Source: Acetobacteraceae bacterium
GTDB taxonomy: Bacteria > Pseudomonadota > Alphaproteobacteria > Acetobacterales > Acetobacteraceae
DNA: 45,891 nt
Reading direction: 5' to 3'
NCBI GenBank assembly: GCA_003164455.1
Contig: PLTJ01000064.1
Span: 1-45,891 of the forward strand
Positions within the stretch are counted from its first letter, which is position 1, and each line of letters starts with the position of its first letter. The position numbers and the translations under genes are program-made. Of the stretch, positions 7,877 to 29,423 are shown in pieces. Under the pieces are notes generated by a model. That model made no database searches, had not been told where the DNA came from, and saw nothing but the letters and a program-made list of their open reading frames with translations.

Positions 7877-7904
7877 ACTCTGCCTCATAGCTGACGACTG
7901 CTCC

Positions 7905-8246: not shown

Positions 8247-9056
8247 GTGACCAGGCCCACCCTCCCGGCCGGCAGCACGCTGCGGCAAGCGGCGTCCGCC
8301 ATGCTGCACAGTCTCGACCCGGCGGCATTCGCCCGGGATGCACTCAGCTTCACCCTTGATCCCTGGCAAAGCGATCTTGTGCGCAAGATGGCCAGCGGCG
8401 AGGCCAAACGCGCCATCACCGTATGCTCTCGCCAGTCTGGCAAGAGCACCACGGCAGCGGTGCTGGCGGCTCACACTGCGGCATATCATCCGGGCAGCCT
8501 GACGGTGCTCCTGGCTCCAACTTTGCGCCAGTCCACGGAGCTCTATGCGAAGTCTGCTGCCTTCCTGCGCATGGTGCCGGGCATCAAGCTCGCGCAGGAC
8601 TCCGCCACGGCGTGCAAGCTCACGAACGGCAGCCGCATAGTCAGTCTACCGGGGGAAGCCGCCGGCATCCGAGGTTTCAGCGCGCCGGCCCTGGTAGTCG
8701 TGGACGAAGCGGCGTTCGTCCCGGAGGATGGTGGGCTATTCGACGCCGTGCTGCCGATGCTGGCGGTGAGCAACGGTTCGCTGTTGCTGCTGAGCACGCC
8801 CAACGGCCGGCAAGGGTTCTTCTACGACGTGTGGGAGGACCCGGGCGACGATTGGTTACGCATTGGTGTGCCGTGGCAGCAATGCCCCCGGATCACGCCC
8901 GAATTCATCGAGGAACAGCGCCGCATCAACGGCCCCCGATACGTTGCGGTGGAATTCGAATTGGCCTTCGCAGAGGCTTCCGGCCAGTGGTTCGATGATG
9001 CCGCCATAACCGCGATCATTGACCCGAACTTGCCGCGCCTCTCGCTCGCTTTCTAG
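8247..9056 (+). CDS. Terminase large subunit, ATPase domain only
   Basis: Walker A-like CSRQSGKST, Walker B ALVVVDEAAF, LLLLSTPNGRQGFFYDVW; stop at 9056 before any nuclease domain; GTG start. Confidence 0.85.
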   Translation: MTRPTLPAGSTLRQAASAMLHSLDPAAFARDALSFTLDPWQSDLVRKMASGEAKRAITVCSRQSGKSTTAAVLAAHTAAYHPGSLTVLLAPTLRQSTELYAKSAAFLRMVPGIKLAQDSATACKLTNGSRIVSLPGEAAGIRGFSAPALVVVDEAAFVPEDGGLFDAVLPMLAVSNGSLLLLSTPNGRQGFFYDVWEDPGDDWLRIGVPWQQCPRITPEFIEEQRRINGPRYVAVEFELAFAEASGQWFDDAAITAIIDPNLPRLSLAF

Positions 9057-9073
9057 CAAACAGGAACACCCCC

Positions 9074-9856
9074 ATGGGCATCGCCACACTTCATGCCGAG
9101 GCGGAGGCGCGCGCTTCCGCCCGCGCGGCTATCAACCAACTTCTTCCCCGGCCGGACCCGGGCATGCAATCATCGTTCGAAGAGACAGCCGGGACCCCCA
9201 CCGGCTACGTCCTGGCCGTGGACTTGGGCCAGGCCCGCGACTGGTCCGCCGTGGTGGTCAATGAGCGGGTTGAAGCCGATCGCATCGAATACCAGCGCAG
9301 CAAGTTTGGCCCGGTGCCAAAGGAAGCCCGCCGGCGGCCGATGATCCGGCACAACCTCGTGCGACTGCACCGCTACCCGCTGGGCACCTCATATCCGGAC
9401 GTGTGCAGATCGCTGCGCGAGGCGATGCAGCAATTGCCACCGATGCGCGACGCGCCCGAATTGATCGTTGACGGGACCGGAGTTGGTATCGCCGTGGTGG
9501 ATCAAATGCGGGAGCTTGGCCTTCAGCCTCGCGCGGTCACGATCACCGGCGGGTTCAACGAAAGCGGCACCTATCAGAATAAGCGAGTTGCCAAGAAAAT
9601 ACTGGCGAGTCTGATGGACGCCGTTCTGAGCGAGCACCGGCTGAAGGTGCCGAGTGCGGACCCGCTGGCGCAAGTTCTGACGGCAGAGCTTCGCGCCTTC
9701 ACGGTCCGCATCACCTCCGCCGGGTCGGAGCAGTTCGCCGCGCTGCGCGAAAAGGACCACGACGATTTGGTCCTGGCTGCGGCGCTTGCGGTGTGGGCCG
9801 CGGAAAAGAGGGCGCAGCCTGCGAGGTGGGTGCCCGGGGGCATTTTCACTCGCTAG
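9074..9856 (+). CDS. Terminase large subunit, RNase H-like nuclease domain as a separate ORF
   Basis: LAVDLGQARDWSAVVV, ELIVDGTGVGIAVVDQM, KDHDDLVLAAALAVWAAEK. Confidence 0.8.
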   Translation: MGIATLHAEAEARASARAAINQLLPRPDPGMQSSFEETAGTPTGYVLAVDLGQARDWSAVVVNERVEADRIEYQRSKFGPVPKEARRRPMIRHNLVRLHRYPLGTSYPDVCRSLREAMQQLPPMRDAPELIVDGTGVGIAVVDQMRELGLQPRAVTITGGFNESGTYQNKRVAKKILASLMDAVLSEHRLKVPSADPLAQVLTAELRAFTVRITSAGSEQFAALREKDHDDLVLAAALAVWAAEKRAQPARWVPGGIFTR

Positions 9857-9890
9857 GCCGGCCTGCGTCTTGTCTCGCTGGAGCGTGAAT

Positions 9891-9968
9891 GAGTCGGACG
9901 AACTGACCAGCGCGCGGATCATGGCGGCACTGGCCATGCGGCCAGTCCGCGCCCCCTGGGCCGCGTAG
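9891..9968 (+). repeat. Diverged copy of 7799-7876 (second ALAMRP[I/V]RxPWAA coding segment)
   Basis: Gapless alignment by eye, about 70% identity over 78 bp. Confidence 0.6.
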
Positions 9969-9977
9969 CGTCGCCTA

Positions 9978-9994
9978 CCCCCGACAGCCGGGGG
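9978..9994 (+). terminator. Hairpin after the terminase module (CCCCCG-ACAGC-CGGGGG)
   Basis: Perfect 6-bp GC stem; no T tract. Confidence 0.3.
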
Positions 9995-10128
9995 CGGCCC
10001 GTAAAACGAGCGTCACTGCCCCCGATACGCGGCACGAAACGCGCGGTGCCAACGTTGGCAGCGGCGGTGCCGCTTCGGCCCTGGTCCCGGTAGGCGAAAC
10101 CGGCTAAGGCTCTAATTTAAGAAAACAT

Positions 10129-10158
10129 TTGACTCTTTGGCGTTAATCGTGCTAACTA
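10129..10158 (+). promoter_or_regulatory. Candidate promoter of the cargo operon (TTGACT-18-TAACTA)
   Basis: AT-rich sigma70-like boxes just upstream of the cargo ORFs. Confidence 0.45.
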
Positions 10159-10180
10159 TGACTCATCCTCGAGTGCCCAT

Positions 10181-11117
10181 GTGTCTGCCGTTCCGAACTG
10201 GCGCCGCCTGACGCGAGTGCCAACCTTACCGCCGCCGCTGACGACAGCACCTGATAGTCTACCTTGGGCTGAGACGCGTGCCCATTTGACATCCGTGTTT
10301 CTGAGGCTCAACCTGAAGTGTCATGCGTGGGAGACGATCTTTGCCGCCGGGAAGGACTGTAAAAAAACGGCTACCGACCGCGGAGTCGGCGGTGCCGTGG
10401 CTCGCGGAGAGCGTTCGATTGACAGCCTTCGCAACCGATACGGCTACGCTTGCGGTAAAGGATTGGCAAACCCTGATCGGGTCCCCGCCCGCTCTCGTTC
10501 AAAATATGCGAGAAGTGCAAGTTCTTCGTCAGGAAAGCGGGGCTGTTCCCGGCGAACCGGATACGACTCTTGTCATGGCAATACAGCCAACTCGCGCAGA
10601 CATCGCGCTCACTCCGGTACTTCGTAGTCCTAACTCTGCCCCGAAAACCTTGGGTAACCTCAAAGATGCCTTAACCAAGTTGCAAAATTATTTCCTAAAT
10701 TGGCTCGGAGACTGGAATAGCATAACACGCCTAGCGATTGGAGCAACAATTCTTGTTCCCACCAAGACGGAAGCGGAATCTCGCGATATTTTATTTTCTA
10801 AGATTCAATCTTTTTCCGCGGGTGGCGACATCGTTGAGTTTGGACTACAAATCAATCGTCCGAGACTTTCTAAAACGATAGGGCAATTGCGTATCAATCG
10901 CCTAACGAACTGGCAGACAGTTCAATACTATGCAATGGGGATAACAAATCAGGGACAAGCCTTGGCCTCCCCGTTCCCTTCGTTGGCCGCTCAGTGCATC
11001 ATTGATGTTAACACTCCGCAGGCAACCCTTCCCTTGTCACCGACTCTAATTAAACAGCTCTTGTCTGAGATGGCCGACATGACAATCGAAATTGCTGCGA
11101 AGGGAGATGTCTCATGA
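10181..11117 (+). CDS. Cargo gene 1, unknown function; possibly one gene read across an A7 tract (frames 10181.. and 10323..11117)
   Basis: 264-aa ORF 10323..11117; protein-like N-terminal sequence in another frame from the GTG at 10181, joined at A7 (10361-10367). Confidence 0.55.
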
Positions 11118-11740
11118 CGCCAAGACTGCTTGCGCTGGTTATGCCCATTGCCACCGTGGCGACTTTGTCTGTCACCTATCAAGCAAGCGACACGGGATCA
11201 GCTTTAGCCTTTCCCGTAGCGACAGGAAGCAACAAAAATGGCGTGTCGTTCGATCCCAATAGTATTTTTCCAGCCGGCACGCTGCTCAGTCCGCTTGCCC
11301 GGCGTTCAGAAACGATAGGAAACTTTGGTGAGCTTATGTTTAACGGCGCGGTCTTGGCCTCGTTGATCGAACTCGTTGATAGCGACGATCCAATCGCAGA
11401 GGCTTCGGACCTGATTGAGCGCCACGGCGACAAAGCATATTCAGCGATTTGGACAGCTCTAACGGATGATCGATTTACGAAGGTACGCCGGGAATTCATT
11501 GAGTCGATATCCGAGCTACCGCCAGCAAAAGGTGATGCCAAGGATATAATTTTAAACTCAGCACTACACTCCTCGCTTCCGGGTGATCGCACTGTTGCGG
11601 CATCCGCACTAGGTAATATTGGGACATCTTATGCGCTTGCCGCGTTGTCCGCCCGACAGAAGGTGGAGACTAATCGTGTGGTACGAATGACGATCGAAGC
11701 CCACTTGGCACGGGCCAGCCGTGTGGCGGCGGCCGTCTGA
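11114..11740 (+). CDS. Cargo gene 2, unknown function; N-terminal hydrophobic segment, helical HEAT-like C-terminal part (inference)
   Basis: ATGA overlap with cargo gene 1; repeated helical segments ...AASALGNIGTSYALAALSARQK... Confidence 0.65.
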   Translation: MTPRLLALVMPIATVATLSVTYQASDTGSALAFPVATGSNKNGVSFDPNSIFPAGTLLSPLARRSETIGNFGELMFNGAVLASLIELVDSDDPIAEASDLIERHGDKAYSAIWTALTDDRFTKVRREFIESISELPPAKGDAKDIILNSALHSSLPGDRTVAASALGNIGTSYALAALSARQKVETNRVVRMTIEAHLARASRVAAAV

Positions 11741-11745
11741 AGTGA

Positions 11746-12327
11746 ATGGCAATGCTGCTTAGGTTGGTCAAGAGTGACATATGGGCCGATCTGGACTTCC
11801 GTACCGGATCGGATGCTCGGAATTTTCCCGCGCAACCTCTTGAACAGATATTTTCAATTGGTGGGACTTCCGTATGGCAAGTGAATAATCAGGAAGAGAT
11901 CGTTGATACGTTGGCTATTTCTTCGCTCGGGCGGTCGACCATAAAAGACTTAGGATATATAACATTTGATGAGGCCGCCCTACTTGCAATAGGAATAAAA
12001 ATTGTGAAAACACCCGGACGGACGGTTGATACAATTGTCAATGACCGGCATCGAGATTTGAAAATAGCGAAGGCTGGCCATATTCTTGATCTTGCGCGCC
12101 TTGCCGCAAGCGCAAATTTTGGGAGTGCGCCAGCAGGCGATCTATTGGACGTTATAGCTGAAATCTTTCAGTCTGGCCGTATTGATAAGTTGAAATTCAG
12201 GCAAAATCAGAAGCTCCCGAGCAAAGATGCTTATGACAAGGATTCTGCACTTCTACACTGGCTATTCGGACAATCGCATCTTTCCTTTATCCGCACATCT
12301 CATTCGGTTCCTCCTGCTCCAACCTGA
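11746..12327 (+). CDS. Cargo gene 3, unknown function
   Basis: 193-aa ORF 5 bp after cargo gene 2, lower GC than surroundings. Confidence 0.65.
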   Translation: MAMLLRLVKSDIWADLDFRTGSDARNFPAQPLEQIFSIGGTSVWQVNNQEEIVDTLAISSLGRSTIKDLGYITFDEAALLAIGIKIVKTPGRTVDTIVNDRHRDLKIAKAGHILDLARLAASANFGSAPAGDLLDVIAEIFQSGRIDKLKFRQNQKLPSKDAYDKDSALLHWLFGQSHLSFIRTSHSVPPAPT

Positions 12328-12346
12328 GGGAAGCGAGGGACAGTTC

Positions 12347-12790
12347 CTACTGACGCGAGCAGCCGCTATCGGCGCCAACCGCCGGGACCGCTCCGCGAAA
12401 GGCAGCCCCGCAGCAGCACGGGAGGCCCGGCCGGCGCAAGACAGGCCCATGCCACCTCCCGGGTGAGGGCGGCACTATTACCGCGCCCCCGCCCGCGACG
12501 GCTTCGAGGGCGGCCGCCGCATCACCACGAACCCCCGCCCGCTCCACGTAGCGCACCAGCACATCGGCTGTGATCGCGACCATTGGCTCGGACGCCACCC
12601 GGTAGGGCCGGCCACGCTCATCGAAGCGGAGGGCGTAGGACAAGGCACCCGACGATATCCTCTCGCGTGGCAGGGTGCAGGGGTTCATCCACAAGCGACT
12701 GAAATTGCTTGCCGACCGTAGGTGAAGCGCCCTTTTGGGTCGCCCCGCTACGGGCGATCCCGTCAGGGTAAGGCGTGCGCCATGATGCAA
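12347..12790 (-). CDS. Possible hypothetical protein
   Basis: Internal segment SSGALSYALRFDERGRPYRVASEPMVAITADVLVRYVERAGV looks protein-like; the ends look spurious. Confidence 0.3.
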   Translation of the reverse strand: MHHGARLTLTGSPVAGRPKRALHLRSASNFSRLWMNPCTLPRERISSGALSYALRFDERGRPYRVASEPMVAITADVLVRYVERAGVRGDAAAALEAVAGGGAVIVPPSPGRWHGPVLRRPGLPCCCGAAFRGAVPAVGADSGCSRQ

Positions 12791-12962
12791 CGGGGCTTTC
12801 GGCTCAGAGGGCGGTCACCTGCCTTCCGGCAGGGCCATCGCCACGCTTCGAGAACTCAGACTGTTGCGGAGCAACGGGAATCGTGACCATCATTCCCTCG
12901 GAAGGATTTGCCGAGATTTCGACTAGGAAATCCCGGCTGATGTCAATGCACTGACGGAGGAA

Positions 12963-13418
12963 ATGATGAAAATCAGAAACTTTGACCGTTACGGAAAATT
13001 GTTGAGCGTTTCTCAAACGGAGCGAGATTATAACGACAATCGCCCGAGCTTGCCCACATTAGATACTATGGTCCCAAAGTTTTCTTCTCCTGTCGAAAGA
13101 ATAATTACTATCGCAATTATAGCGCTGTTGCCGGTGCTTTGTGGCGCTGCCTACCTATTTTGGTATCTTCATTACACGATGCATTGGCACCCGGCGGTAT
13201 CGGGGCTTGCTGCCACTGTCCCCGTCGCGGTTGCCGGTGTGCTTATCTGGTATTCGCGTGTTTTTAGGATTATATATTTCAGTTTATTTACAATCGCTGT
13301 GACTTTCGTGGTTTTTATTTTTGCTAAAGCCGCATTCGATGTCGTATGGGCCGGGTTCGCTGCGGCGGCGGCTTTCATTGCTGGGGCCATCTTTGTCTGG
13401 TTTTTGGTTCGAAATTAG
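12963..13418 (+). CDS. Small multi-pass membrane protein, unknown function
   Basis: Several predicted hydrophobic helices (IITIAIIALLPVLCGAAYLFWYL, FRIIYFSLFTIAVTFVVFIFA, AFIAGAIFVWFLV). Confidence 0.65.
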   Translation: MMKIRNFDRYGKLLSVSQTERDYNDNRPSLPTLDTMVPKFSSPVERIITIAIIALLPVLCGAAYLFWYLHYTMHWHPAVSGLAATVPVAVAGVLIWYSRVFRIIYFSLFTIAVTFVVFIFAKAAFDVVWAGFAAAAAFIAGAIFVWFLVRN

Positions 13419-13579
13419 CGTCCGTCCGGAAACAAGTTGAACCGCAGGAATCGGATGTGATCGGCGCCCCCTGGCGGCCGGCCCTGATCTCCGTGGGGGG
13501 CGGAACCGCGATTTGTGATCTACGTGCCCGGGATGGCGGCGCTGTCTTTGGCGTCGCGTTCCGCCATAGACTGCCGGGC

Positions 13580-13752
13580 ATGTGCAACCTCTACGCCATG
13601 ACCCGGAACCGGGACGCCATCAGGCGGGCACCGCGGCGGCGCTGGACCTGCAACGGCCCTTCCCGGCGGAGGGCTTGGCGATCATGGCGACGGGGCAGCC
13701 TAAAGGGCGAGCCGGTCCCGCTAGTAAACTTATCGGCCAGCGCGGCTGTTAG
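13580..13752 (+). pseudogene. Internally deleted SRAP (SOS response-associated peptidase)-like fossil
   Basis: MCNLYAMTRNRDAIRR in one frame, then TAAALDLQRPFPAEGLAIMATG in the next frame; the central region is missing. Confidence 0.5.
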
Positions 13753-14336
13753 GGTCCGGCCTGGACTCGCGCCAAAGCTTCTCGTTTCATGGTCTCGAAC
13801 TCCTCTTGGGATATCGCCCCGTCCGTGCGGAGTTTCCAAAGACGCTCGATCACGCTGGAGACCGGCTCGGTCGGATTAGCCGCGGGAGGTGGCGCAGAGA
13901 CTTTGGGTTGGCGGCTCGCACCAACCATCTCCATAATAAGTGTGCAAGCTGACCGAAACCGGGCCGCCTGAGAGCGCGAGTTCAGGCTGATGCAATTTGG
14001 AGCCTTGCTAGGGTCGGAGCCCTTATTGGTCGACCAATAGCTCTTCTCCACGTTCTGCATGCCGCCGGCTGATATCTCGAAATAGCCTGTCAGCAAGTGG
14101 AACTTCACTTCGACAGTCGCAACGTTGGTATAGGGAACCTGAAAGGCGTTTGAGCCAAAAATCTGCCCGGTCATGAAACCCGATTTTAGAATTAGCACCC
14201 GACGATCCGTGCACACCAGCGCCTCTTTCCAGGCGCCTTTGAGCTGTATCTCCACAGTTTCTCCTGCAAGCAGGAGCTCCCGCAGTTTCTTGTCTAGCCC
14301 GCCCGGCAACTCGTCGATCAGGTTCTGTGGCATCAT
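13749..14336 (-). CDS. PH-like plus C-terminal SHOCT-like domain protein
   Basis: ALVCTDRRVLILKSGFMTGQIFGSNAFQVPYTNVATVEVK and VIERLWKLRTDGAISQEEFETMKREAL. Confidence 0.65.
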   Translation of the reverse strand: MMPQNLIDELPGGLDKKLRELLLAGETVEIQLKGAWKEALVCTDRRVLILKSGFMTGQIFGSNAFQVPYTNVATVEVKFHLLTGYFEISAGGMQNVEKSYWSTNKGSDPSKAPNCISLNSRSQAARFRSACTLIMEMVGASRQPKVSAPPPAANPTEPVSSVIERLWKLRTDGAISQEEFETMKREALARVQAGP

Positions 14337-14447
14337 TTCCTCAGTCCCGTTCGCAAAACGATACTCGCCCGCATCGGAAACGTCAAACCTACTCGACGAA
14401 GCCTGCCTATCCCGGCCCAGGTGCGTCGTAGACGCGATCAGGGGCCG

Positions 14448-15680
14448 CTACTTCCTCGGCAGTTTCAGCAGCTCCGCGGCCGGCGGCATGCCCTCCATGA
14501 GCAGCCCCGCCCACTCGGCAGCAATCTCGCGGCGGCGGGTCATGTGCTGCGCCCGGTTGTATGCGCGCTCGACCTGATCCTTGATTACGTGCGCCAGCAT
14601 CAGGTCGATGACAGCCCGGTCCACCGGGCGCCTCTCGTTCATGACGCTGCTGAACGTCGCACGCCAGCCGTGGGCAGTCTGGTGGCCGTGGTAGCCGGCC
14701 CGATTCAGTAGGTAGCCGATGGCGTTCTCAGACAGCGGCTTGCGCGGGTTGCTCCAATTCGGGAACGGGATCGGCCCTTCGCCGGTGAGGGTCCGCACGG
14801 CCAACAGCGCGTCCACCGCTTGCGGGGCCAGCGGCACCACATGGTCGGGTGTCTCCCCTGCCCGCTCCGTCTTGACCTTCATCCTGGCCGCCGGGATCGT
14901 CCAAACGGGATCGGCGGCCGTCAGGTCGCCAAACTCGCCCCACGTCGCCCCGCGGATATCGCCCGGCCGCACGGCGGTTAGGGCCAGCAGACGCAGCGCC
15001 AGCCGGGTGACGGGGTGCGCTGGGACCGCCTCGGCTGCCCGCAGCACGGCCCTGGCCTCTTCCAGGGTCGCCACAGCCGCCCGCCGGCCGATCGGGATGA
15101 CAGGCGCCAACTGGCGGCGGAGGCTCGTCACGGGGTTGCCATCCGCGTAACCGAGGGCAACGGCACGATCCATGATCGCGCTGATACGCTGCCGCAGCCG
15201 GTGCGCCCGTTCGGCCGCTCCGCGCTCCGCCACCCGTTGCAGCACGGCGAGCACGGCCGGCGCCTTGATCTCGCCAACCGGCACCTTACCCAAGTCGGGG
15301 AACACCTCTTCCCTCAGGCTGGCCAGCACGTCCTGCGCGTGGTGCGGCTTCCACAGACGTTGCGTCGATTCGTGCCAGGCAAGCGCCTCATCCTCAAACG
15401 TCCGGACCGGCGGCGGTGGCGGTTCGGGCTCCGCCGGGTCATGCCCGGCCACAACGGCATCTTGGGCGGCATCGCGCGCACGCCGGGCAGCCGCAAGGCC
15501 CATGTCGGGATACGTGCCGAGGGTCACGACACGCTCGACGCCCTTCCGCATGTAGCGCCAGCGCCACGACCGGGAGCCGGTCGGGAACACGACCAGGTAT
15601 AGGCCGCCGTTGTCCGGCAGCTTGATCCGCTTTGACCCCGGCTTGGTCTGCCTGATGCGAGTATCCGTCAGCCCCGTCAT
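14448..15680 (-). CDS. int: Tyrosine-type site-specific integrase (P4-like, N-terminal arm-binding domain)
   Basis: LPDNGGLYLVVFPTGSRSWRWRYMRKGVERVVTLGTYPDMGLAAAR; TAVRPGDIRGATW; TAHGWRATFSS; catalytic Tyr region LAHVIKDQVERAYNRA; adjacent to tRNA-Arg. Confidence 0.93.
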   Translation of the reverse strand: MTGLTDTRIRQTKPGSKRIKLPDNGGLYLVVFPTGSRSWRWRYMRKGVERVVTLGTYPDMGLAAARRARDAAQDAVVAGHDPAEPEPPPPPVRTFEDEALAWHESTQRLWKPHHAQDVLASLREEVFPDLGKVPVGEIKAPAVLAVLQRVAERGAAERAHRLRQRISAIMDRAVALGYADGNPVTSLRRQLAPVIPIGRRAAVATLEEARAVLRAAEAVPAHPVTRLALRLLALTAVRPGDIRGATWGEFGDLTAADPVWTIPAARMKVKTERAGETPDHVVPLAPQAVDALLAVRTLTGEGPIPFPNWSNPRKPLSENAIGYLLNRAGYHGHQTAHGWRATFSSVMNERRPVDRAVIDLMLAHVIKDQVERAYNRAQHMTRRREIAAEWAGLLMEGMPPAAELLKLPRK

Positions 15681-18248: not shown

Positions 18249-18479
18249 CCGTGCCAATGGCCATGGGATGTCGCGGCCGGGTTGGCGAGAGGCGGGCTCT
18301 GTCGATGCCCCTGGTGAAGCAAGCAGCACCAGTGGAGCCGAAAACCGGCGCCCTGGGGCCGGCCGCAGGCCCCGGATGCTGCAATATCGTTGACCGAAGG
18401 CTGTCTTAATTATATGTAAACCAAGAACGGCGACCGTACGACAAATGTCGGATAATGATTCATTTCCGTTTCCTGAGGG

Positions 18480-21400
18480 GTGAAGTCGATGTCTGTCAAG
18501 ACGGCCCAGCAGCCTTTCATGAAGCTGACCGACCCCGCGCTCGATACTGACAACAACGCGTGGCAACCGGACGTCGTCCCGGCGCTACAGATGCTTGACG
18601 GCTGGTGGAGCCAGTTCGGCACCATCGGCGGCTTTGGCTTTGACGCGTTCTCTTCCGTTCTTCCCAGCGGCACGGGCGGCTCCACGCGAGGCACTGGATC
18701 GGGGGCAACTGGGGCCACGTCCAAAACCGGCGGCACGACAGGCTCGACCACGACCCTGTCATGGATCTCCACACTGAACGATGCCGTGATCAAAGCTGAC
18801 ATGACAGCGGCAGATGTTGACGGTACCGTCAGCGAAACCGGGATGGCCCAACTGTTCAGCGATCTCGGTGCCGAGCTGACCGCCGACAAGTCAACCCTGT
18901 CGGCCAGCCAGCTCGCTGACCTCAAGACGATTGCCGCCGACCTCAACGTCGGTGAGACGGCATCGTCCTATGTGACCTACATCACCGATGCGCTGATCGA
19001 CGGCAATGCCGCCAATGCCAAATGGACCGGCGGGGCCGCCTCGACCACCACCCTCGGCAACCTCGCTGTCGGCGCCAGCGCCACGCACGTGGATGAACTC
19101 GACGACAAATGGTTCCTGGGCACCGACCTGCCGAGTTCCAGCGTGAACATGATCGGCGATGGGACTTTCACCGTGTCCTACTCGGCGGTACCCAGCCCGG
19201 TGTTCGGCGCGAGTGGCCCGAGCATGAACGACATCAACCAAGGTTATCTCGGCGACTGCTACCTGATGGCGTCATTGGCCGAAGTTGCCTATCAGGATCC
19301 GTCGGCCATCGAGTCGATGATCATAAATAATGGCAACAATACCTATGGTGTCCGGTTCTTCGTCAACGGCAGCGCGGACTACGTCACGGTCAACGATTCT
19401 CTCGCCGACGGCGGAACGATCTTCAACAGCGCGACCGACATTTGGGGAGACCTGATCGAGAAAGCCTATGCCCAAATCCAGGCAAGCGGCGTCATCACCG
19501 GGAATACTTATAATTTCGGCAACTCCTATTCGACCATTGGTAATGGTGGCGCACCGGAATATGCCCTGGAGGAAATAACCGACGCGTCAGCCATCACTGA
19601 TTTCAATGCCGGCCGCGCGTCGTGGAGCGAAGATGTCTACAATGACGACTTGAATACCCAGTCAACCGGCTCCGGGTTGACGACGGCATCCGTGTTGGCA
19701 ACCTTGGTCGCCGACCTTGGCAAAGGGTATGACGAGGTTCTGTCTTCCTCCACCAACGCCACCGACAGCAGCGGCATGACCACGCTGGTGGCCGATCACG
19801 CCCTGTCGGTCTATGGCTACGACAGCACGACCGGCGATCTCGAGATCCGCAACCCGTGGGGTACCGATCCCGGGCAATACTGGGACACGACGTTCGAGGT
19901 CAGCCTGACCACCCTTCTCGCCGATGGCGATACCATCAGCGTCGCCGACGTGCCATCTTCCCCAGGATCGGTTGTCACCGGAGCCTTGGTATCCGCTGCC
20001 GCCGGGTTGCAGGCGAACGCCGCGGTGACGTCGTTCTCCATCACGGACAGCATGGCCAATGTGAGCGCGGCCTTCGCGAGCCTGGCCACCGATACCAAAC
20101 TCACATCGATTACGCTGACCGACAGCAGCACGCCGGCGCTGACTCTGACCGCGGCGCAATACACCGCCGACGCCAGCGTTCTCGCCAAGATCACCAGCAA
20201 CTACAATCTGACGGTGACCGGCGCCCTGGCGTCAGCCGCCGCCGGATTGCAGGCGAACGCCGCGGTGGCGTCGTTCTCCATCTCGGACAGCATGGCCGAT
20301 GTGAGCGCGGCTTTCACGGGCCTGGCCACCGATACCAAGCTCACGTCGATTACGCTGACCGACACCAGCACACCAGCGCTGACCCTGACCGCGGTGCAAT
20401 ACACCGCCGATACCGGCGTTCTCGCCAAGATCACCAGCAACTACAATCTGATGGTGACCGGTGCCCTGGCGTCAGCCGCCGCCGGATTGCAGGCCAACAC
20501 GGATGTCATCGCGTTTTCCCTGTCGGATAGCGCCAGCAATGTGAACGCGGCCTTCGCCGGCCTGGCCACCGATACCAAGCTCACATCGATTACGTTGACC
20601 GACACCAACACACCGACGCTGACCCTGACCGCGGCGCAATACACCGCCGATACCGGCGTTCTCGTCAAGATCGCCAGCAACTACAATCTGATCGTGAATG
20701 GTGCCTTGGTGTCAGCCGTCGCCGGATTGCAGGCCAACACGCATGTCATCGCGTTTTCCGTTTCGGATAGCTCGACCGATGTGGCGAGCTCAATCGCCGC
20801 GCTGAATGGCGATACGAAACTTGCGTCGATCACCGTAACCGACAGCAATCCTCTGTCGATCACCTATGCCCAATTGACCGGCGACACGACCGCATTGAGC
20901 AAGCTGCCGAGCCCCTACAAGGTGTCTGTGAGTGGTGTCAGCGCCGCGAACGCCGGGGCTGTGCAGGCCAACACGCATGTCGCGTCGTTCACGGTGTCCG
21001 ACACCGCGGCCGATGTCACGGCGGCGCTGTCTTCGCTGGATGGCGACAGCAAACTGTCGGCGCTGACCGTCAGTGGAACGACCTCGGCGAACACGCTCAA
21101 TCTGACCGGATCGGATGTGGCGGCAACGATCAATCTGAATGGCAACACGGCCAGTGTCAGTGCCGGCCTGACCGCACCCAGCCTGACCTTCATCGGCACA
21201 CCCGATGCCATCACGCTGGGGACGGGCGCCAGCACCATCGATTACACCCTGGCATCCAGCAGTGGAATCGAGACCATCGCCAACTTCCAATACGGCCTGG
21301 ACCTGCTCGATATCAGCCTGAACGGTGCCGCCAGCAGTCTGCTGAAAGCAGCTAACACCAAGCTGAATGGTCAGAACGCCATCTCAATCTACAGCAGTGC

Positions 21401-21509
21401 CGATCCAACGCACGGCGTCGTTCTGGCCGGCGTCAGCAGCAGCATGACCGCCGCCAACCTGCTGACCAGCCACCTCGTGTTCAGCAATGGGAACGCTCTG
21501 ATCAGCTGA
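18480..21509 (+). CDS. Calpain family (C2) cysteine protease with C-terminal tandem repeats
   Basis: Catalytic motifs NDINQGYLGDCYLMASLAE (Cys), DHALSVYGYD (His), EIRNPWG (Asn); then ~80-aa repeats. Confidence 0.82.
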   Translation: MKSMSVKTAQQPFMKLTDPALDTDNNAWQPDVVPALQMLDGWWSQFGTIGGFGFDAFSSVLPSGTGGSTRGTGSGATGATSKTGGTTGSTTTLSWISTLNDAVIKADMTAADVDGTVSETGMAQLFSDLGAELTADKSTLSASQLADLKTIAADLNVGETASSYVTYITDALIDGNAANAKWTGGAASTTTLGNLAVGASATHVDELDDKWFLGTDLPSSSVNMIGDGTFTVSYSAVPSPVFGASGPSMNDINQGYLGDCYLMASLAEVAYQDPSAIESMIINNGNNTYGVRFFVNGSADYVTVNDSLADGGTIFNSATDIWGDLIEKAYAQIQASGVITGNTYNFGNSYSTIGNGGAPEYALEEITDASAITDFNAGRASWSEDVYNDDLNTQSTGSGLTTASVLATLVADLGKGYDEVLSSSTNATDSSGMTTLVADHALSVYGYDSTTGDLEIRNPWGTDPGQYWDTTFEVSLTTLLADGDTISVADVPSSPGSVVTGALVSAAAGLQANAAVTSFSITDSMANVSAAFASLATDTKLTSITLTDSSTPALTLTAAQYTADASVLAKITSNYNLTVTGALASAAAGLQANAAVASFSISDSMADVSAAFTGLATDTKLTSITLTDTSTPALTLTAVQYTADTGVLAKITSNYNLMVTGALASAAAGLQANTDVIAFSLSDSASNVNAAFAGLATDTKLTSITLTDTNTPTLTLTAAQYTADTGVLVKIASNYNLIVNGALVSAVAGLQANTHVIAFSVSDSSTDVASSIAALNGDTKLASITVTDSNPLSITYAQLTGDTTALSKLPSPYKVSVSGVSAANAGAVQANTHVASFTVSDTAADVTAALSSLDGDSKLSALTVSGTTSANTLNLTGSDVAATINLNGNTASVSAGLTAPSLTFIGTPDAITLGTGASTIDYTLASSSGIETIANFQYGLDLLDISLNGAASSLLKAANTKLNGQNAISIYSSADPTHGVVLAGVSSSMTAANLLTSHLVFSNGNALIS
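19974..20930 (+). repeat. 240-bp in-frame tandem repeats within the calpain-like gene (three close units plus a diverged fourth)
   Basis: Units begin at ~19974, 20214, 20454, 20694; first three exactly 240 bp apart and highly similar. Confidence 0.9.
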
Positions 21510-21748: not shown

Positions 21749-23686
21749 ATGACAATTCTGACGGTCGGGGCTGGAGGCGCGTTCCAGACCATCGCCTCGG
21801 CGGTCGCCGTCTCGCAGGATGGCGACACGATCGACGTCGCTGCCGGTACCTACACCAACGACTTCCTCGTCTTCAGCGACAGTATCACGTTGCAGGCGGT
21901 CGGCGGCATGGTGGTGATCAACGCCACCGTGCCGCCGCCGGACGAAATGGCGATCATCACGGAAGGCGCGACCGACGCGAACGTCACCATCAGCGGCTTC
22001 GAGCTGACCGGCGCGGCGATATCCTCTGATGAGGGCAATAACGGCGCCGGCATCCGCTACCAGGGCGGCAACCTGACGCTGACCAACGACTATATCTACG
22101 ACAACCAGGAAGGCGTCCTCGCCGGCACGCCGCCAGTCGCGGGGACCGGCACGATCTCCATCAGCAACAGCGAATTCGCCGATAACGGCGCGGGCGATGG
22201 CTACAGCCACAACATCTACGTCAACAACGTCGCCCTGCTGGAGATCACCAACAGCCTCTTCACCGGTGCCGTGGTCGGCCACGAGATCAAGAGCCGCGCG
22301 GTGGACACCATCATCACCGACAACGTCATCGCCGGCGGCCCAACCGGCTCCGACAGCTACAGCATCGACCTGCCCAATGGCGGCGATGCCACCGTTACCG
22401 GCAACGTCATCGAGAAGGGACCGGACTCGCAGAATCCCTATTTCATCTCCTATGGCGAGGAAGGGGTGACGAACCCGGGCACGAGCGTCACCATCTCGAA
22501 CAATACCATCCTCAACGACTTCGGCAGCAACGCGGTCGTCGTGAAGAACGACAGCACGACCACCATCGCGTTCAGCGGCAACGCGGTGTACGGGCTGACC
22601 TCGGGCCAGCTGATCAGCGGCCCCGGGACCGCCAGTGGCACGACGAACCTGACCACCGAACCGGCGGTAGACTATACGGCGCCGTGGTCGGCCGCCGCCA
22701 CGCCGCCGCTGGACTGGGCGGCGTGCTTCGCGACGGGCACCCGCATCACCACCCCGCGCGGCGCCTGCGCGGTGGAACGGCTGGCCGTCGGCGATCCGGT
22801 GCTGACGGCGGAAGGTCGCGCCGTGCCCGTCACCTGGATCGGCCATCGCGGCGTTTCATGCGAGCGCCATCCGCGCCCGCACGACGTCTGGCCGGTGTGC
22901 ATCCACGCCGGCGCCTTCGGCGACGGTCTGCCGCAGCGCGACCTCACCCTGTCACCCGACCATGCCGTGTTCATCGACGGCGTGCTGGTCCCCATCCGTT
23001 ACCTCGTGAACGGCTGCACCATCGCGCAGGTGCCGGTGAAGGCCATCACCTATTGGCATGTCGAACTGCCCACCCATGACGTTCTGCTGGCCGAGGGCCT
23101 GCCCGCCGAGAGCTATCTCGACACCGGCAACCGCGGCGCCTTCGCGGGCGGCAACGAGCCGCCCATGCTGCACCCGGACTTCGCCCTGCGGATCTGGGAG
23201 GCGCGGGCCTGTGCGAAGCTGGTGGTCGACGGACCCGAACTGGTAGCGGCGCGAAGCTGGCTGCTGGCCCGCGCCGAAACACTCGGTCATCGCACGACGC
23301 GCGCGCCCGCGCTGCGGCTGCGTACCGATGCCGGCACCGTGGCAGCCCAGGCCGACGGCCTCCGCCACCGGTTTGACCTGCCGCCGGGAACGCAGGGCCT
23401 GCGACTGCAATCGCGGGCCGGCGTGCCCGCGCAGATGGACCCCGAGAGCATGGATTGCCGCTCTCTCGGGGTCGCTGTCCGCGCTCTTGCGCTGGACGGC
23501 GTCGCGCTCGCCCTCACCGACACCCGGCTCGGGCCCGGCTGGCACGCGGCCGAGCCGGGCTGGCGCTGGACCGACGGCGACGCCACCATCGCCGCCGGGA
23601 GCGCGCGCACCCTGGAGATCGAACTCGCCATGGGCGCGCTCTACTGGGACGACGACGCGGCGGATGGGCTTATCCGCGCGGCGTGA
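21749..23686 (+). CDS. Parallel beta-helix repeat protein with C-terminal Hint domain
   Basis: Pectate lyase-like repeats (ISISNSEFADNGAG, LEITNSLFTGAVV) then ACFATGTRITTPRGACAVERLAVGDPVLTAEG...LTLSPDHAVFIDGVLVPIRYLVNG. Confidence 0.85.
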   Translation: MTILTVGAGGAFQTIASAVAVSQDGDTIDVAAGTYTNDFLVFSDSITLQAVGGMVVINATVPPPDEMAIITEGATDANVTISGFELTGAAISSDEGNNGAGIRYQGGNLTLTNDYIYDNQEGVLAGTPPVAGTGTISISNSEFADNGAGDGYSHNIYVNNVALLEITNSLFTGAVVGHEIKSRAVDTIITDNVIAGGPTGSDSYSIDLPNGGDATVTGNVIEKGPDSQNPYFISYGEEGVTNPGTSVTISNNTILNDFGSNAVVVKNDSTTTIAFSGNAVYGLTSGQLISGPGTASGTTNLTTEPAVDYTAPWSAAATPPLDWAACFATGTRITTPRGACAVERLAVGDPVLTAEGRAVPVTWIGHRGVSCERHPRPHDVWPVCIHAGAFGDGLPQRDLTLSPDHAVFIDGVLVPIRYLVNGCTIAQVPVKAITYWHVELPTHDVLLAEGLPAESYLDTGNRGAFAGGNEPPMLHPDFALRIWEARACAKLVVDGPELVAARSWLLARAETLGHRTTRAPALRLRTDAGTVAAQADGLRHRFDLPPGTQGLRLQSRAGVPAQMDPESMDCRSLGVAVRALALDGVALALTDTRLGPGWHAAEPGWRWTDGDATIAAGSARTLEIELAMGALYWDDDAADGLIRAA

Positions 23687-23691: not shown

Positions 23692-24585
23692 TCAGTCGTC
23701 GTCGCGGACGGTCTTCAGGATCGCCGCCATGCGCTCGACCAGTTCGCTGCCCACCTCGGTCATCGGGCTCTTCGAATAGCCGCAGTCGCGCCCCAGCAGT
23801 TTGGCTGCCGCCTTCATGCGGGCGGGGAACTGCGGCCCGCGAACGATTTTCCACAGCGGGTAGAGGCGGTTCTGGATCTTCAGCGCCTCCGCGTGACGAC
23901 CGGTGCCGGTCAGGTCCCACATCTTCACGCACAGGCGGGGGAACAATGACAGGATGGCCGAGATCGCCCCGTCGGCACCGGCCGCGAAGCAGGAGTAGAT
24001 CATCTCGTCGGTGGCGGCGAAAACCATGCCGCGATCGCCGCACATGACCTTCATGTCGTACATCGCCATGATGCCGCCGACGCTTTGCTTGACCCCGATG
24101 ACGTTCTTGATGTCAAGCAGCCGCGAGAATAGCTCCGACGACACTTCGTTCTGCGGGATCACGTTGTAGATGATGATCGGCAGGTCGACCGCCTCGGAGA
24201 TGGCGCGGTAGAACTTCTCGTTGCCGTTATCGTCGGGAACCAGAACGTTGTAGAAAGTCGGCGTCACCATCAACGCATCGGCGCCGGCCGCCTTCGCCCG
24301 CAACGCAGTGGCGATCGCCGCCTGGGTCGAGCACCGAGCCACGCCGGAGACGACGGGAATGCCCTTCTTGTTCTCTTCGCGTATGACGCCGATCAACTGA
24401 ACGAGTTCATCGTCCGAGAGGGCGGCATTCTCGCCCGTGCTGCCTCCCGGGCTGATGCAATGGATCCCGGCGTCGAGGAGATAGCGAACTTCTCTCCGGT
24501 ACAGGCCGGTGTCGATCTTCTCGTCCTCGGTAAAAGTCGTCAGGACGGGGGGCGTGATGCCCCTGAAGCCTTCGCCCTTCTTCAT
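23692..24585 (-). CDS. Dihydrodipicolinate synthase family aldolase
   Basis: GITPPVLTTFTEDEKIDTGLYRREVRYLLDAGIHCISPGGSTGENAALSDDE. Confidence 0.88.
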   Translation of the reverse strand: MKKGEGFRGITPPVLTTFTEDEKIDTGLYRREVRYLLDAGIHCISPGGSTGENAALSDDELVQLIGVIREENKKGIPVVSGVARCSTQAAIATALRAKAAGADALMVTPTFYNVLVPDDNGNEKFYRAISEAVDLPIIIYNVIPQNEVSSELFSRLLDIKNVIGVKQSVGGIMAMYDMKVMCGDRGMVFAATDEMIYSCFAAGADGAISAILSLFPRLCVKMWDLTGTGRHAEALKIQNRLYPLWKIVRGPQFPARMKAAAKLLGRDCGYSKSPMTEVGSELVERMAAILKTVRDDD

Positions 24586-24706
24586 CGATTGACTTCCTTC
24601 TTCGTTCGTCGCGGCGACCGCCGCTCACCACACCTGACCGTGCAGGCGCGGTGGGCGGGCGGCCGCCGCTTCCGTTCGATGACCGGCGGTTACCGGCCGT
24701 TGCGGC

Positions 24707-25627
24707 TTACAGCAGACCGAAAGTGACCATCGCCTTGCGAACCTCGGCGATTTCTTCCGGCGTGCCGGGCGTCAGCGGCCGGCGCGGAATGCCCGCGTTG
24801 ACACCCAGCAGCTTCATGGCGTCCTTCCACAGCGGAGCCGGGTTCGTCCGTCCGTTCTGCCCCATGATCTTCAGCAGCGGATAGAGCTTACGCTGCATGG
24901 CGGCCGCTTCGGCGATCTTGCCGGCCAGGAAGGTCTCGATCATCTTGCGGACGTAAGGCCCGACCGCATGCGAGGCTCCCGAGATCACGCCGCCGATCCG
25001 GGCGTCGCCGCCCTGAGCGTAGGCTTCCAGGATCATCGTGTCGTCGCCGTTGTAGATGATGAAGCTTTCCGGCGTCGCGTTGAGGAACCCGGTGATCTGT
25101 TTCGGATTCAGTTCCGCCTCTTCCTTGACGCCGACGACGTTGGGGAATTTGGCGAGCGCCCCGAGGGTCGCCGGATCGATATTGACGCCGGTGAAGATCG
25201 GAATGTTGTAGACCAGGATATCCAGGGCCGGCACCGCTTTCGCGATCTCGGCGTAGTGAGCATAGAGTTCCTGTTGCGCCGGCTTCGTATAGTACGGGGC
25301 AACGATCATGGCGGTTTCGAAGCCCATCTCCAGGGCCTTCTTCGCCAGGGCGATCGTCTCCATGGTCGAGGCGCAGCCGACGCCGGCGACCAGCGGAACC
25401 CGCCCGCCGACCGCTGCCTTCACGGTCTCGAAAATGGCCACGCGCTCAGCGAACAGCTGCGTGTGGAACTCGCCCGTGGTGCCGCTGAGGACCAGCGAAT
25501 CGGCCATCTTGTTGTCGATCAGATAGGTCGCCAGGCTCTTCAGTGCGGCGTGGTCCACGCTCTGGTCGGCAGCATAGGGCGTAAGAATAGGCACTAGGAT
25601 CCGGCCGTACTTGGTTTTGTCAAACAT
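24707..25627 (-). CDS. Dihydrodipicolinate synthase family protein (second copy)
   Basis: GRILVPILTPYAADQSVDHAALKSLATYLIDNKMADSLVLSGTTGEFHTQ. Confidence 0.88.
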   Translation of the reverse strand: MFDKTKYGRILVPILTPYAADQSVDHAALKSLATYLIDNKMADSLVLSGTTGEFHTQLFAERVAIFETVKAAVGGRVPLVAGVGCASTMETIALAKKALEMGFETAMIVAPYYTKPAQQELYAHYAEIAKAVPALDILVYNIPIFTGVNIDPATLGALAKFPNVVGVKEEAELNPKQITGFLNATPESFIIYNGDDTMILEAYAQGGDARIGGVISGASHAVGPYVRKMIETFLAGKIAEAAAMQRKLYPLLKIMGQNGRTNPAPLWKDAMKLLGVNAGIPRRPLTPGTPEEIAEVRKAMVTFGLL

Positions 25628-25688
25628 ATCTCTCTCCTTGTCGAATTAAGGGCACGCTGGGTTGGGATTACTGCGTTCAGTTGTGCAT

Positions 25689-27032
25689 TCAGTCAGCCGA
25701 ACCTTCCAGGTCTGCCATCTCCAGGTCGAGCGGCTTCCCGGATCTCTCGCGCATCGACGCCACGCATCCGATCGTGATCAGGCAGCCAACCAGCAGGAAC
25801 ACGGAGATGATCCACGATTTCCCGCCGGACTGCGTGAGCAGCCAAGTGCCGATCAGGGGCGTCAGTCCGCCGATGATGTTGGCGAACTGGAAGCCGAGCG
25901 AGATGCCGGTGTAGCGGACGCCGGTAGGGAACGCCTCGGAGAAGAAGGCCGGCTCCACCGCGAACATCACCCCGTTGCCAAAGGCGAAGGTGAATGCGAC
26001 GGCACACACGAACAAGGGATAGCTGCCGGTATCGGTCAGCCAGAACATCGGAAAAGCCATTACCGCCGCCACACAGGCACCGAACATGAAGACCGGTCGC
26101 CGGCCGACCCGGTCGGACATATAGCCGGCCAAGGGCACCGAGATCATGTCCACGACGCTTGCGGCGAGGATCACATAGAGAACCTGGGTGGAGTTGTAGC
26201 CGATGTTGCGCGTCGCGTAGGACAGCAGGAAGCCGATCACCAGCCAGCCCAGGATGATCTCACCGGTGCGCACACCCATCGCGAGAAGCACGGCCCGCTT
26301 GCCGTTGCGGAGAATATCCAGGACCGGCGCAACCCGCTTGGCACCCTTGCGCGCCAGCTCCCTGAACAGCGGCGTTTCGTTGATGTGATTGCGGATATAG
26401 AGCCCGACCGCCAGGACAACGATGCTGGCCAGGAACGGGATTCGCCAGCCGCCCGCGAGCAGACTGTCGCGCGGGATCACGGCGAAGATGAGAGCGGAGG
26501 TAAACAGCCCGACGACGTTGCCGAGTTGTACGAAGGTACCATAGAAGCCGCGTCTGTTCGCCGGCGCGTACTCGATAACCATCGCCGCCGCACCGCCCCA
26601 CTCGCCGCCGAGGGCGAATCCTTGCAGGAGCCGGAGAACGATCACGATGACGGGCGCCCAGAAGCCGATCGTGGCGTAGCCCGGCACCAGGCCCATCGCG
26701 AAGGTGGACAGGCCCATGACGAGCAGCGCGAGGATCAGCATTTTCTTGCGGCCGTTGCGATCGCCGTAGTGGCCGAACAGAACCGCGCCGATCGGGCGGG
26801 TCGTGAACGGAATCGCCAGCGTGGCGTAAGCCGCCATGAGACCGTAGATGGGTGACAGCGTGGGGAAGAACAACTGCGGGAAAACCAGCGCCGCGGCCGT
26901 GCCATAAATAAAGAAGTCGTAGAACTCGATCGTCGTGCCGATCATGCTCGACCCGACGACGACGGCGAGGCTGGTTTCGGGTGGTTCGGTCTCAGGCGGG
27001 GAAGCTCCGCCAGCGGCCATCGGGGCATTCAT
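25689..27032 (-). CDS. MFS transporter, MHS-like
   Basis: VVGSSMIGTTIEFYDFFIYGTAAALVFPQLFFP...FGHYGDRNGRKKML. Confidence 0.92.
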   Translation of the reverse strand: MNAPMAAGGASPPETEPPETSLAVVVGSSMIGTTIEFYDFFIYGTAAALVFPQLFFPTLSPIYGLMAAYATLAIPFTTRPIGAVLFGHYGDRNGRKKMLILALLVMGLSTFAMGLVPGYATIGFWAPVIVIVLRLLQGFALGGEWGGAAAMVIEYAPANRRGFYGTFVQLGNVVGLFTSALIFAVIPRDSLLAGGWRIPFLASIVVLAVGLYIRNHINETPLFRELARKGAKRVAPVLDILRNGKRAVLLAMGVRTGEIILGWLVIGFLLSYATRNIGYNSTQVLYVILAASVVDMISVPLAGYMSDRVGRRPVFMFGACVAAVMAFPMFWLTDTGSYPLFVCAVAFTFAFGNGVMFAVEPAFFSEAFPTGVRYTGISLGFQFANIIGGLTPLIGTWLLTQSGGKSWIISVFLLVGCLITIGCVASMRERSGKPLDLEMADLEGSAD

Positions 27033-27413
27033 GTTCGCTCTCCCAAGAATTCCTGTTCGGATTGTCGCGCTGGGGCCAGGGTGTTGGTGGCGCCGCCCCT
27101 GTTCGGGTGTTCGGATCGGAGGGTTCTATATTGCGGCATCGTTACGTCCGCGAGCGTATGGCGGGGGCCGGGACTTCGGCCGGAGACACTCGTGGCGCCG
27201 GGTGTCGTTGCAACGGACCTGTTCACGGCATCCTTACCTGAAAGCACGGTCTCTTGTTTACGACCCGGCGGCAGTCCCGTCAATCAGTCTGTCATCCCGC
27301 AATATGGATCATCAGAGCAGATTCCACTTTATCAGCGCTAGATTGTCCCTCTACGCTCCCGAAAAACGGGACGCGATTCCACAATGCCATCCATTTATTG
27401 GCGAGGAGTGACC

Positions 27414-27497
27414 ATGACCAGCACCATCGGACGCACCGCGCGCCGCGGTCTGCTGCGGAACACTGCCTGGTTGACAGCGCTCGGCGCGGCCGGCTGA
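27414..27497 (+). pseudogene. Orphan signal-peptide-like ORF (truncated secreted-protein gene)
   Basis: MTSTIGRTARRGLLRNTAWLTALGAAG* preceded by GAGGAG; stops after the signal peptide. Confidence 0.4.
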
Positions 27498-27539
27498 TAC
27501 TGAGCCTTTCCGTCCTGCATAAGCCAAGGTTCCGCCAAC

Positions 27540-28550
27540 ATGCTCATCGACTGCCACGGACACACCAGTGCGCCGCAACGCCTCTGGGCCTATCGCGCGC
27601 TGTTGCTCGCCAGCCGTGGCGTCGATGGGCCAAGTCAGCTCAATTTCACCGACGACGAAATCCGCCACGCCTTGATGACCCCGGAGAGCGGCCCGCTCGG
27701 GCATGTCCCCTCGCTCGACGCCCACGGGATTGACCTGCAGCTCCTGTCGCCGCGCCCGAACCACCTGATGCACAGCGAGCAGCCCGAAAAGATCATCCAC
27801 TGGTTCGTCGAAGCCGAGCACGACCTGATCCATCGCCAGGTGCAGCTTTTCCCTGGCCGGTTCCGCGGCGTCGCGGCCCTGCCGCAATGCGCCGGCGCGC
27901 CGATCGAAAATGCCCTGCCCGAACTCGAACGCTGCGTCCGCCGTCTCGGCTTCGTCGGCTGTCTGCTCAACCCGGACCCCTACGAAAACGGCGGCCGCGG
28001 TGAGGCCCCGCCGCTTGGCGAGCGCTACTGGTATCCACTCTACGAAAAGCTCTGCGAGCTTGACGTTCCGGCGCACATACACGCCACCACCTCGCGCTCG
28101 CCGCGCGTCGGCTACAGCCTGCATATGATCAACGAGGAATCGATCGCGATCCTTGGCCTGCTCAACTCCGACGTGTTGCGCGATTTCCCGACACTGAATC
28201 TGATCATCTCGCATGGTGGTGGTGCGATCCCCTATCAGCTCGGCCGCTTCGACGCCGATTCGCTGCGCCATGGCGCCACCCGTTTCCGCGACCGCCTGCG
28301 CGGTCTTTACTTCGACACGGTGATCTACAATCGCGCTTCGATCGAGATGCTGATCAAGACCGTCGGCGCCGATCGCTGCCTGTTCGGCGAGGAATGCCCG
28401 GGGATCGGCGCCGTCGTCGACCCGGAGACGGGACGGCAGGTGGACGAACTCCGCCCGGTCGTGGACAGCCTGGACTTCCTCTCCGCCGCCGAGCGTCAGA
28501 TGATCCTGGAAGGCAACGCGCGGCGAGTCTTTGGGCTGGGTGAAATCTGA
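27540..28550 (+). CDS. Amidohydrolase family protein (4-oxalomesaconate hydratase / ACMSD-like)
   Basis: MLIDCHGHTSAPQRLW...LNLIISHGGGAIPYQLGRF...CLFGEECPG. Confidence 0.82.
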   Translation: MLIDCHGHTSAPQRLWAYRALLLASRGVDGPSQLNFTDDEIRHALMTPESGPLGHVPSLDAHGIDLQLLSPRPNHLMHSEQPEKIIHWFVEAEHDLIHRQVQLFPGRFRGVAALPQCAGAPIENALPELERCVRRLGFVGCLLNPDPYENGGRGEAPPLGERYWYPLYEKLCELDVPAHIHATTSRSPRVGYSLHMINEESIAILGLLNSDVLRDFPTLNLIISHGGGAIPYQLGRFDADSLRHGATRFRDRLRGLYFDTVIYNRASIEMLIKTVGADRCLFGEECPGIGAVVDPETGRQVDELRPVVDSLDFLSAAERQMILEGNARRVFGLGEI

Positions 28551-28613
28551 CGGGCCACTCTTGCCTGGCGTCCCGAGTTACGGTAACATATTCTGTTTTT
28601 TGGGACGCTCCAT

Positions 28614-29423
28614 TTGCCTCGTGATACACCTGCCGAGTCAGCCCGCGCCGAAAGCAGCCTGAAGTCGCTTGCCAAGGTCGTGCGCGTGCTTGACGTGTTT
28701 TCCACCGTCGATCGCGCCTTGTCGCTCGCGGACATAGGCCAACGCACCGGTTTTCCCAAAAGCACGGCGCATCGCCTGCTCGCCGCGATGCGTGAGGCCG
28801 GGTTGCTGGACCAGGATCGCGAGCGCGACCGCTACCGGCTCGGGATGAAGTTGTTCGAACTTGGCAATATCGTGCTCGCCAACATGGACCTGCACCGCGA
28901 GGCACGTCCCTTCGTCGACGCGCTGACGCGCCAGAGCGGCCAGGCCGTGCATCTCGCCGTGTTCGACGGTCACCGGGCGCTTGTCATTCATCGCGCCGAT
29001 GCCTCGCCCGAGAAGGGCCAGCCGACCGCATTGATCGAACAGGCGCCGGTCCATTGTACCAGCGTCGGCAAGGCGATCCTTGCCTTCCAGTCGGCAGCGA
29101 CCATCGACCGCGTGATCTCGGTGGGGCTGATACGCTTCACCGACGCCACGATCACCGATCCGGAGCTGCTGCGCGTGGAGCTCGACGCGGTACGAGAGCG
29201 CGGCTATGCCCTCGACGAGGGCGAGCACCAGCCCGGTGTGCGCTGTGTGGCCGCGCCAATCCGCGACCAGAGCGGCCGTGTCGTCGCCGGGATCAGCATC
29301 ACCGGGCCATTCTGGCGCCTGCCGCTCAGCGAGGTCGAAGGCCTGGCGAAAGTGGCGATCCACTACGCGAACGCCATTTCACTCGCTGTCGGCTACCGTC
29401 CCGCCCAGAGCGCGATCGCTTGA
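28614..29423 (+). CDS. IclR family transcriptional regulator
   Basis: LKSLAKVVRVLDVFSTVDRALSLADIGQRTGFPKSTAHRLLAAMREAGLL; TTG start in the track. Confidence 0.9.
   Translation: MPRDTPAESARAESSLKSLAKVVRVLDVFSTVDRALSLADIGQRTGFPKSTAHRLLAAMREAGLLDQDRERDRYRLGMKLFELGNIVLANMDLHREARPFVDALTRQSGQAVHLAVFDGHRALVIHRADASPEKGQPTALIEQAPVHCTSVGKAILAFQSAATIDRVISVGLIRFTDATITDPELLRVELDAVRERGYALDEGEHQPGVRCVAAPIRDQSGRVVAGISITGPFWRLPLSEVEGLAKVAIHYANAISLAVGYRPAQSAIA

Follow-up and report, generated by a model that had tools for sequence, protein, structure and literature searches.

A calpain-family protease with an 80-residue repeat tail in an Acetobacteraceae genome, and relatives encoded beside type I secretion genes

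Calpains are best known from animal cells and are seen as intracellular, Ca2+-controlled enzymes. The locus studied here raises the question of what a calpain-like protein with a long repeat tail is in a bacterium, and on which side of the membrane it works. The window, that is the whole stretch of DNA analysed, comprises 45,891 nucleotides of an Acetobacteraceae contig (PLTJ01000064.1), and a sequence-only reading had proposed that the open reading frame at 18480-21509 encodes a calpain-family protease exported by a type I secretion system (T1SS). Their bacterial counterparts have hardly been characterised. In the survey of Rawlings (2015) bacterial calpain homologues, including Tpr of Porphyromonas gingivalis, were rare, patchy in distribution and varied in architecture, and Tpr was the only one with biochemistry (PMC4631099).

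The frame at 18480-21509 (+ strand) was a real gene. It was open and protein-like, its GC content by codon position (0.53/0.53/0.78) followed a gene-like pattern, and full-length homologues were 51-63% identical. The start at 18480 fared less well. Because a likely ribosome-binding site, GAGGGG (18475..18480, + strand, as read from the sequence), lies 8 nt before the ATG at 18489, and because several relatives start with MSIK, MSIR or MSMT at the aligned position, this ATG is probably the start rather than the GTG at 18480. The gene would then span 18489..21509 and encode 1006 aa, instead of 1009 aa from the GTG. Residue numbers are counted from GTG 18480 throughout.

Peptidase_C2 was the sole Pfam family recognised in the protein (E 2.8e-15, 56.6 bits, cut-off 23.8). 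By Pfam, PDB profile match and fold, the Peptidase_C2/CysPc core covers aa 239-490 (19194..19949, + strand). Human m-calpain was matched by phmmer at 3.4e-6, and a profile built on 22 relatives gave a match at 1.7e-18 whose alignment takes in the Cys, the His and the Asn region. The motif QGYLGDC holds the oxyanion-hole glutamine Gln254 (19239..19241) and the nucleophile Cys260 (19257..19259), the only cysteine of the protein; DHALSVYGYD holds the catalytic His440 (19797..19799) and RNPWG the catalytic Asn458 (19851..19853), all on the + strand. The three motifs are where the sequence-only reading had placed a calpain-like triad. The four residues stand in calpain order and context in the alignment with m-calpain, and they were invariant in 14 homologues and in 22 more diverse ones.

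Structure prediction of residues ~200-520 had been proposed as a check on the papain-like core. An AlphaFold2 model of aa 87-499, built from 22 sequences (pLDDT 85.5, pTM 0.86), showed a calpain fold and left the papain-like reading standing. All 38 PDB fold matches with E<=0.001 in Foldseek were calpain structures, the best being 2p0r (2.9e-12). The TM-scores to calpain cores were moderate (mostly 0.4-0.6, with an rmsd of about 5-8 Å), which is expected because of the ~20% identity and the extra domain. The assignment as a calpain-family (C2) protease, as first read from the sequence, is thus supported by sequence, catalytic residues and predicted fold. The window calpain would presumably be proteolytically active.

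The Q/C/H/N set and the CysPc core are shared, in sequence and fold, with the cores of human calpain-2, calpain-3 and calpain-9. In contrast to these, the window protein has a large non-calpain tail and its own N-terminal module, and Pfam recognised neither a C2L nor a penta-EF-hand domain behind its core. It also differs in the calcium ligands. In calpain-2, site 1 is formed by Ile89, Gly91, Asp96 and Glu175, and site 2 by Glu292, Asp299, Gln319 and Glu323 (PMC4631099). In the alignment to calpain-2, Gly246 and Asp251 of site 1 were kept and Asp320 replaced Glu175, whereas the site 2 ligands were not retained. A fully conserved site 1, which we had considered, was withdrawn, as the Asp320 position varies among relatives. 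Since site 1 appears only partly kept and site 2 lost, Ca2+ dependence of the window calpain cannot be assumed.

In front of the core lies a conserved module of four helices (aa 92-235; 18753..19184, + strand), which all close relatives have. In the model two short paired strands lie between helices, and the topology, read off the DSSP string, resembles an EF-hand arrangement. No relatives of the module were found by Pfam or by sequence matching against the PDB. As the sequence-only reading had noted, a standard signal peptide is lacking: no hydrophobic segment was found within the first 72 aa, where the best 12-residue Kyte-Doolittle mean was 1.05.

The tail behind the core (aa 502-882; 19983..21125, + strand) consists of four units of 78-80 aa, starting at aa 502, 582, 662 and 742, and a degenerate partial unit (823-882). 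Tandem Repeats Finder reported a period of 240 bp with 3.2 copies and 88% match, and identity among copies 1-3 was 81-90% at the DNA level and 75-86% at the protein level. As relatives carry arrays of two to nine units, comparison of the sequences indicates that the 80-aa array expands and contracts. The model of the tail showed strand-helix coils forming an alpha/beta solenoid, with a pLDDT of about 90-95 in the repeats. The earlier description was right about the ~80-aa tandem repeats, but its beta-rich region is a separate end of ~130 aa, modelled with low confidence, and not the repeats, which are alpha/beta.

Alternating strand/helix coils are also found in LRR-like solenoids such as NLRP proteins and ribonuclease inhibitor, which were the top, non-significant Foldseek matches of the tail. 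Unlike these, the window tail has its coils grouped in 80-aa units and no LRR sequence motif was found in it; kinship was rejected (TM-scores about 0.14, E 1.6e-3 and worse) and none is claimed. The NCBIfam model CcmE was likewise rejected for the repeats, at 16.7 bits against a cut-off of 152.

The last ~130 residues form a C-terminal module (aa 881-1009; 21120..21506, + strand) that was beta-rich in a low-confidence model and is proposed to act in export. The module is not confined to calpains. It also ends a repeat protein of locus L088 and an unrelated, non-calpain protein of 1407 aa beside TolC- and HlyD-type genes (L089). At L089 (5335-15852) and L107 we observed an operon-like set of OEP (TolC-type), HlyD and HlyD/M50-like genes together with this 1407-aa repeat protein, adjoining an open frame of 3799 aa.

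The window protein has several features in common with type I substrates such as RTX proteins and serralysins (PMC3034196): it lacks a signal peptide, is poor in cysteines and has modular repeats and a C-terminal module, and HlyB/HlyD genes adjoin its relatives. It differs from them in that an array of GGxGxDxUx nonapeptides was absent (one isolated match was found at aa 50) and in that its C-terminal module is not detectably related to that of serralysins. No significant sequence match was found between the module and solved serralysin-type C-termini or T1SS substrates in the PDB, serralysin appeared for the tail model only at a Foldseek E of about 1, and the comparison with the end of the calpain of L013 gave a weak hhalign match (34 columns, E 0.041, probability 1.3%). 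Kinship with serralysins was therefore not established. As no Pfam or NCBIfam domain was recognised in the tail either, the likeness of the tail to type I-secreted repeat tails, on which the sequence-only reading had relied, turned out to be a weak argument.

Stronger evidence for export came from gene order in relatives. Six relatives, which represent at least four lineages (Xanthobacteraceae, Hyphomicrobiales), have a calpain gene with the N-terminal module and the protease core that is immediately followed by HlyB-type and HlyD-type genes; these are all six loci of this clade that extend far enough downstream, L126 ending too early. At L008, L010 and L011 the three genes follow each other on the same strand, 12-158 bp apart; their HlyB-type products scored 958-997 bits against TIGR01846 (cut-off 725.6) and their HlyD-type products 321-327 bits against TIGR01843 (cut-off 208.7). 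The same order was found at L124, L125 and L127, with roughly 420-525 bp before HlyB; these three are close kin (cores 90-93% identical) and were counted as one lineage. Because the genomes of L008, L010 and L011 hold only two, one and three strong HlyB genes, three chance calpain-HlyB neighbours are very unlikely.

The linked calpains also have their last 45 residues in common (L008-L011 z 7.9, L008-L124 z 5.8, L011-L124 z 3.2). For the first two pairs none of 2000 shuffles scored as high. This comparison covers the operon calpains whose C-terminus was read; that of L010 is obscured by Ns. The same 45-residue end follows tails that range from an end of ~90 aa to several Ig-like domains, and it fits a C-terminal export signal. 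T1SS export of the operon-clade calpains is accordingly a well supported prediction from gene order and shared ends, and an operon with a type I pump suggests that a bacterial calpain would be used outside the cell, not inside as in animals.

For the window calpain itself the case is different. The window genes that were scanned included no T1SS gene, and none was found beside the homologues that share the window's tail (L003, L005, L063-L067). Near L065 and L066, ABC genes fell into one cluster with T1SS genes, but MsbA-type exporters were their best matches and they were not counted. In whole-genome searches T1SS-type genes of the window genome were found on other contigs: contig C472 ends with a HlyB-like gene (508 bits) and the first part of a HlyD-like gene, and contig C86 opens with the remainder of a HlyD-like gene, an arrangement at the contig ends that suggests a single operon. 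The HlyB-like protein shared only 32-34% identity with the operon HlyBs and did not reach the TIGR01846 cut-off. Compared with the ends of the operon-linked calpains, the C-terminus of the window protein showed no resemblance (z about 0); its C-terminal module is a putative export signal. Because the window calpain lies outside the operon clade, the HlyB-like gene is unlinked and the C-terminal module is different, we infer T1SS export of this protein rather than read it off the locus. The search for linked T1SS genes that had been suggested thus succeeded in six relatives but not in the 45.9-kb window contig, and the proposed type I secretion is better supported for these relatives, where the calpain gene precedes HlyB/HlyD, than for the window protein.

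The combination of N-terminal module and core is rare. It was found in 19 of 398 genomes of the window's family at 1e-10, in some only weakly, and in a class-level search in one of 385 genomes, the window's own; a search of 399 genomes from the family to which L008 belongs gave 9 with a match at 1e-20. Module and core are joined to 80-aa-repeat tails in Acetobacteraceae and Rhodospirillales MAGs and to He_PIG tails in Magnetospirillum (L006), Xanthobacteraceae (L008) and Rhizobiales (L011), while the tail contains Calx-beta and an NF038122 metalloprotease in L009, Big_13/Big_6 in L013, Calx-beta and RCC1 in L072 and Hint_2 in L075 and L076. In the core tree the He_PIG-tailed L006 nests inside the 80-aa-repeat clade with a support of 97/98, which shows, by computation on these sequences, that tails have been exchanged between calpain cores.

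Other C2 proteins were met in the same searches. One frame at L009 (9731-13699) unites two protease domains, the calpain C2 core and the NF038122-type HExxH metalloprotease, with Calx-beta repeats between them. Giant calpain proteins of 2299-2394 aa were found at L070-L073; that of L072 (2331 aa) joins a C2 core to Calx-beta and RCC1-like repeats. A second calpain clade in the family of L008 (L128-L131, about 1260-1340 aa) has a conserved end, ...QVATLAPPQHA, and is not linked to HlyB/HlyD. At L068 the C2 match is broken by one in-frame TAA, from a broken gene or a sequencing error. Carriage of the calpain by phages or plasmids was rejected: no match was found in the phages or viral contigs searched, and there was one distant match to a Calothrix plasmid (31%).

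We consider it fairly probable that the window encodes a modular extracellular C2 cysteine protease, type I-exported and with an exchangeable tail. The chain would lack a Sec signal and be exported from its C-terminal end by a T1SS. Folding outside the cell, Cys260, His440 and Asn458 would form a papain-like active site together with Gln254. The four-helix module would belong to the protease unit, perhaps regulating or stabilising the core, and the 80-aa alpha/beta solenoid may space the protease from, or attach it to, a surface or target. We counted the single cysteine, the acidic core and the missing N-terminal hydrophobic stretch for this type I export, as well as the HlyB-like and HlyD-like genes of the window's own genome and the C-terminal module that it shares with the 1407-aa protein of L089. 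A more far-reaching version is a dedicated alphaproteobacterial calpain export system, in which a protease unit has its own HlyB/HlyD operon, tails of solenoid, Ig-like, Calx-beta (with a second metalloprotease) or Hint type are swapped to retarget the calpain extracellularly and Hint partners release it from the surface; we regard this as tentative and would sooner doubt than adopt it.

The gene next to the calpain bears on a different explanation. At 21749..23686 (+ strand), 239 bp downstream of the calpain gene, lies a gene whose product begins with a beta-helix-like part and carries a Hint_2 domain (aa 326-459). Hint domains are generally self-cleaving. The exported protein might use its calpain core as a maturation protease on its own chain or on a partner in cis, together with the Hint_2 neighbour, and not to digest foreign protein. 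The Hint_2 gene has the same direction and is one of only five in the genome; a single ORF unites C2 and Hint_2 in L075 and L076, and the two parts occupy adjoining ORFs in L068 and L074. However, a 100/100 split sets the fused forms apart as a distant C2 clade, different genes follow the calpain in the close relatives L003 and L005, the surroundings of L063-L067 yielded no clustered Hint_2-like gene, and the two window genes are separated by those 239 bp. We hold this maturation role to be unlikely. The Hint_2 protein as a functional partner of the calpain is possible; because of the fusions elsewhere the link is plausible, but close homologues lack such a neighbour.

It is also conceivable, and in our judgement quite unlikely, that the protein serves as a protease-like adhesin or scaffold in the cytosol or periplasm, unexported or taking another surface route, and that its C2 core controls some process inside the cell, like the calpains of animals. 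The window with no linked T1SS, the protein with no signal peptide and the tail with no recognised secretion domain would agree with this, and cyanobacterial calpains have been described as cytosolic (PMC9380684). Against it stand the operon linkage in six relatives and the extracellular-type domains (He_PIG, Calx-beta, Big_13) in the relatives' tails. An effector directed at eukaryotic or bacterial neighbours would account for the patchy distribution (19/398 in the family, 1/385 in the class) and the tail exchange, both typical of interaction proteins. Yet no translocation domain, immunity-like gene or T3SS, T4SS or T6SS marker was found among the window genes scanned and the hosts are environmental MAGs, so that we give the effector very little credence.

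The protease family is known, and what the window holds is a new architecture of it. A calpain of Gloeobacter with HemolysinCabind repeats was suggested to be secreted by a non-Sec route (PMC4631099); its repeats are N-terminal, whereas the window calpain has a C-terminal tail without RTX. The present clade resembles the bacterial calpains surveyed by Rawlings (2015) in its rarity, patchy occurrence and variety of domains, and differs from them in that relatives of the window calpain have a dedicated HlyB/HlyD operon. We found no paper tying calpains to a T1SS operon, and neither the T1SS-linked clade nor the tail exchange was found described in the literature searched, outside which most subscription journals lie. 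The linkage of a calpain clade to a type I pump of its own points to a likely place of action for bacterial calpains and offers a direct genetic test, and the tail exchange bears on how the calpain domain gained such different partners across life. Of the Hint_2 (PF13403) proteins of Acetobacteraceae, one adjoins the window gene and others are fused to C2 in L075 and L076; a Hint domain is absent from the window calpain.

To the left of the calpain gene the window contains a phage- or satellite-like element (2195-15680) with a primase/helicase-like protein (2195-4537), a piece of a terminase large subunit (8247-9056) and a phage-type integrase (14448-15680, - strand); no capsid or tail protein was matched among the ten proteins scanned. 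To the right, 23692-29423 and 34737-45638 hold ordinary metabolic genes, including two DHDPS paralogues, a sugar transporter, an amidohydrolase, an IclR regulator, a CoA transferase and NMT1-type and TRAP transporters.
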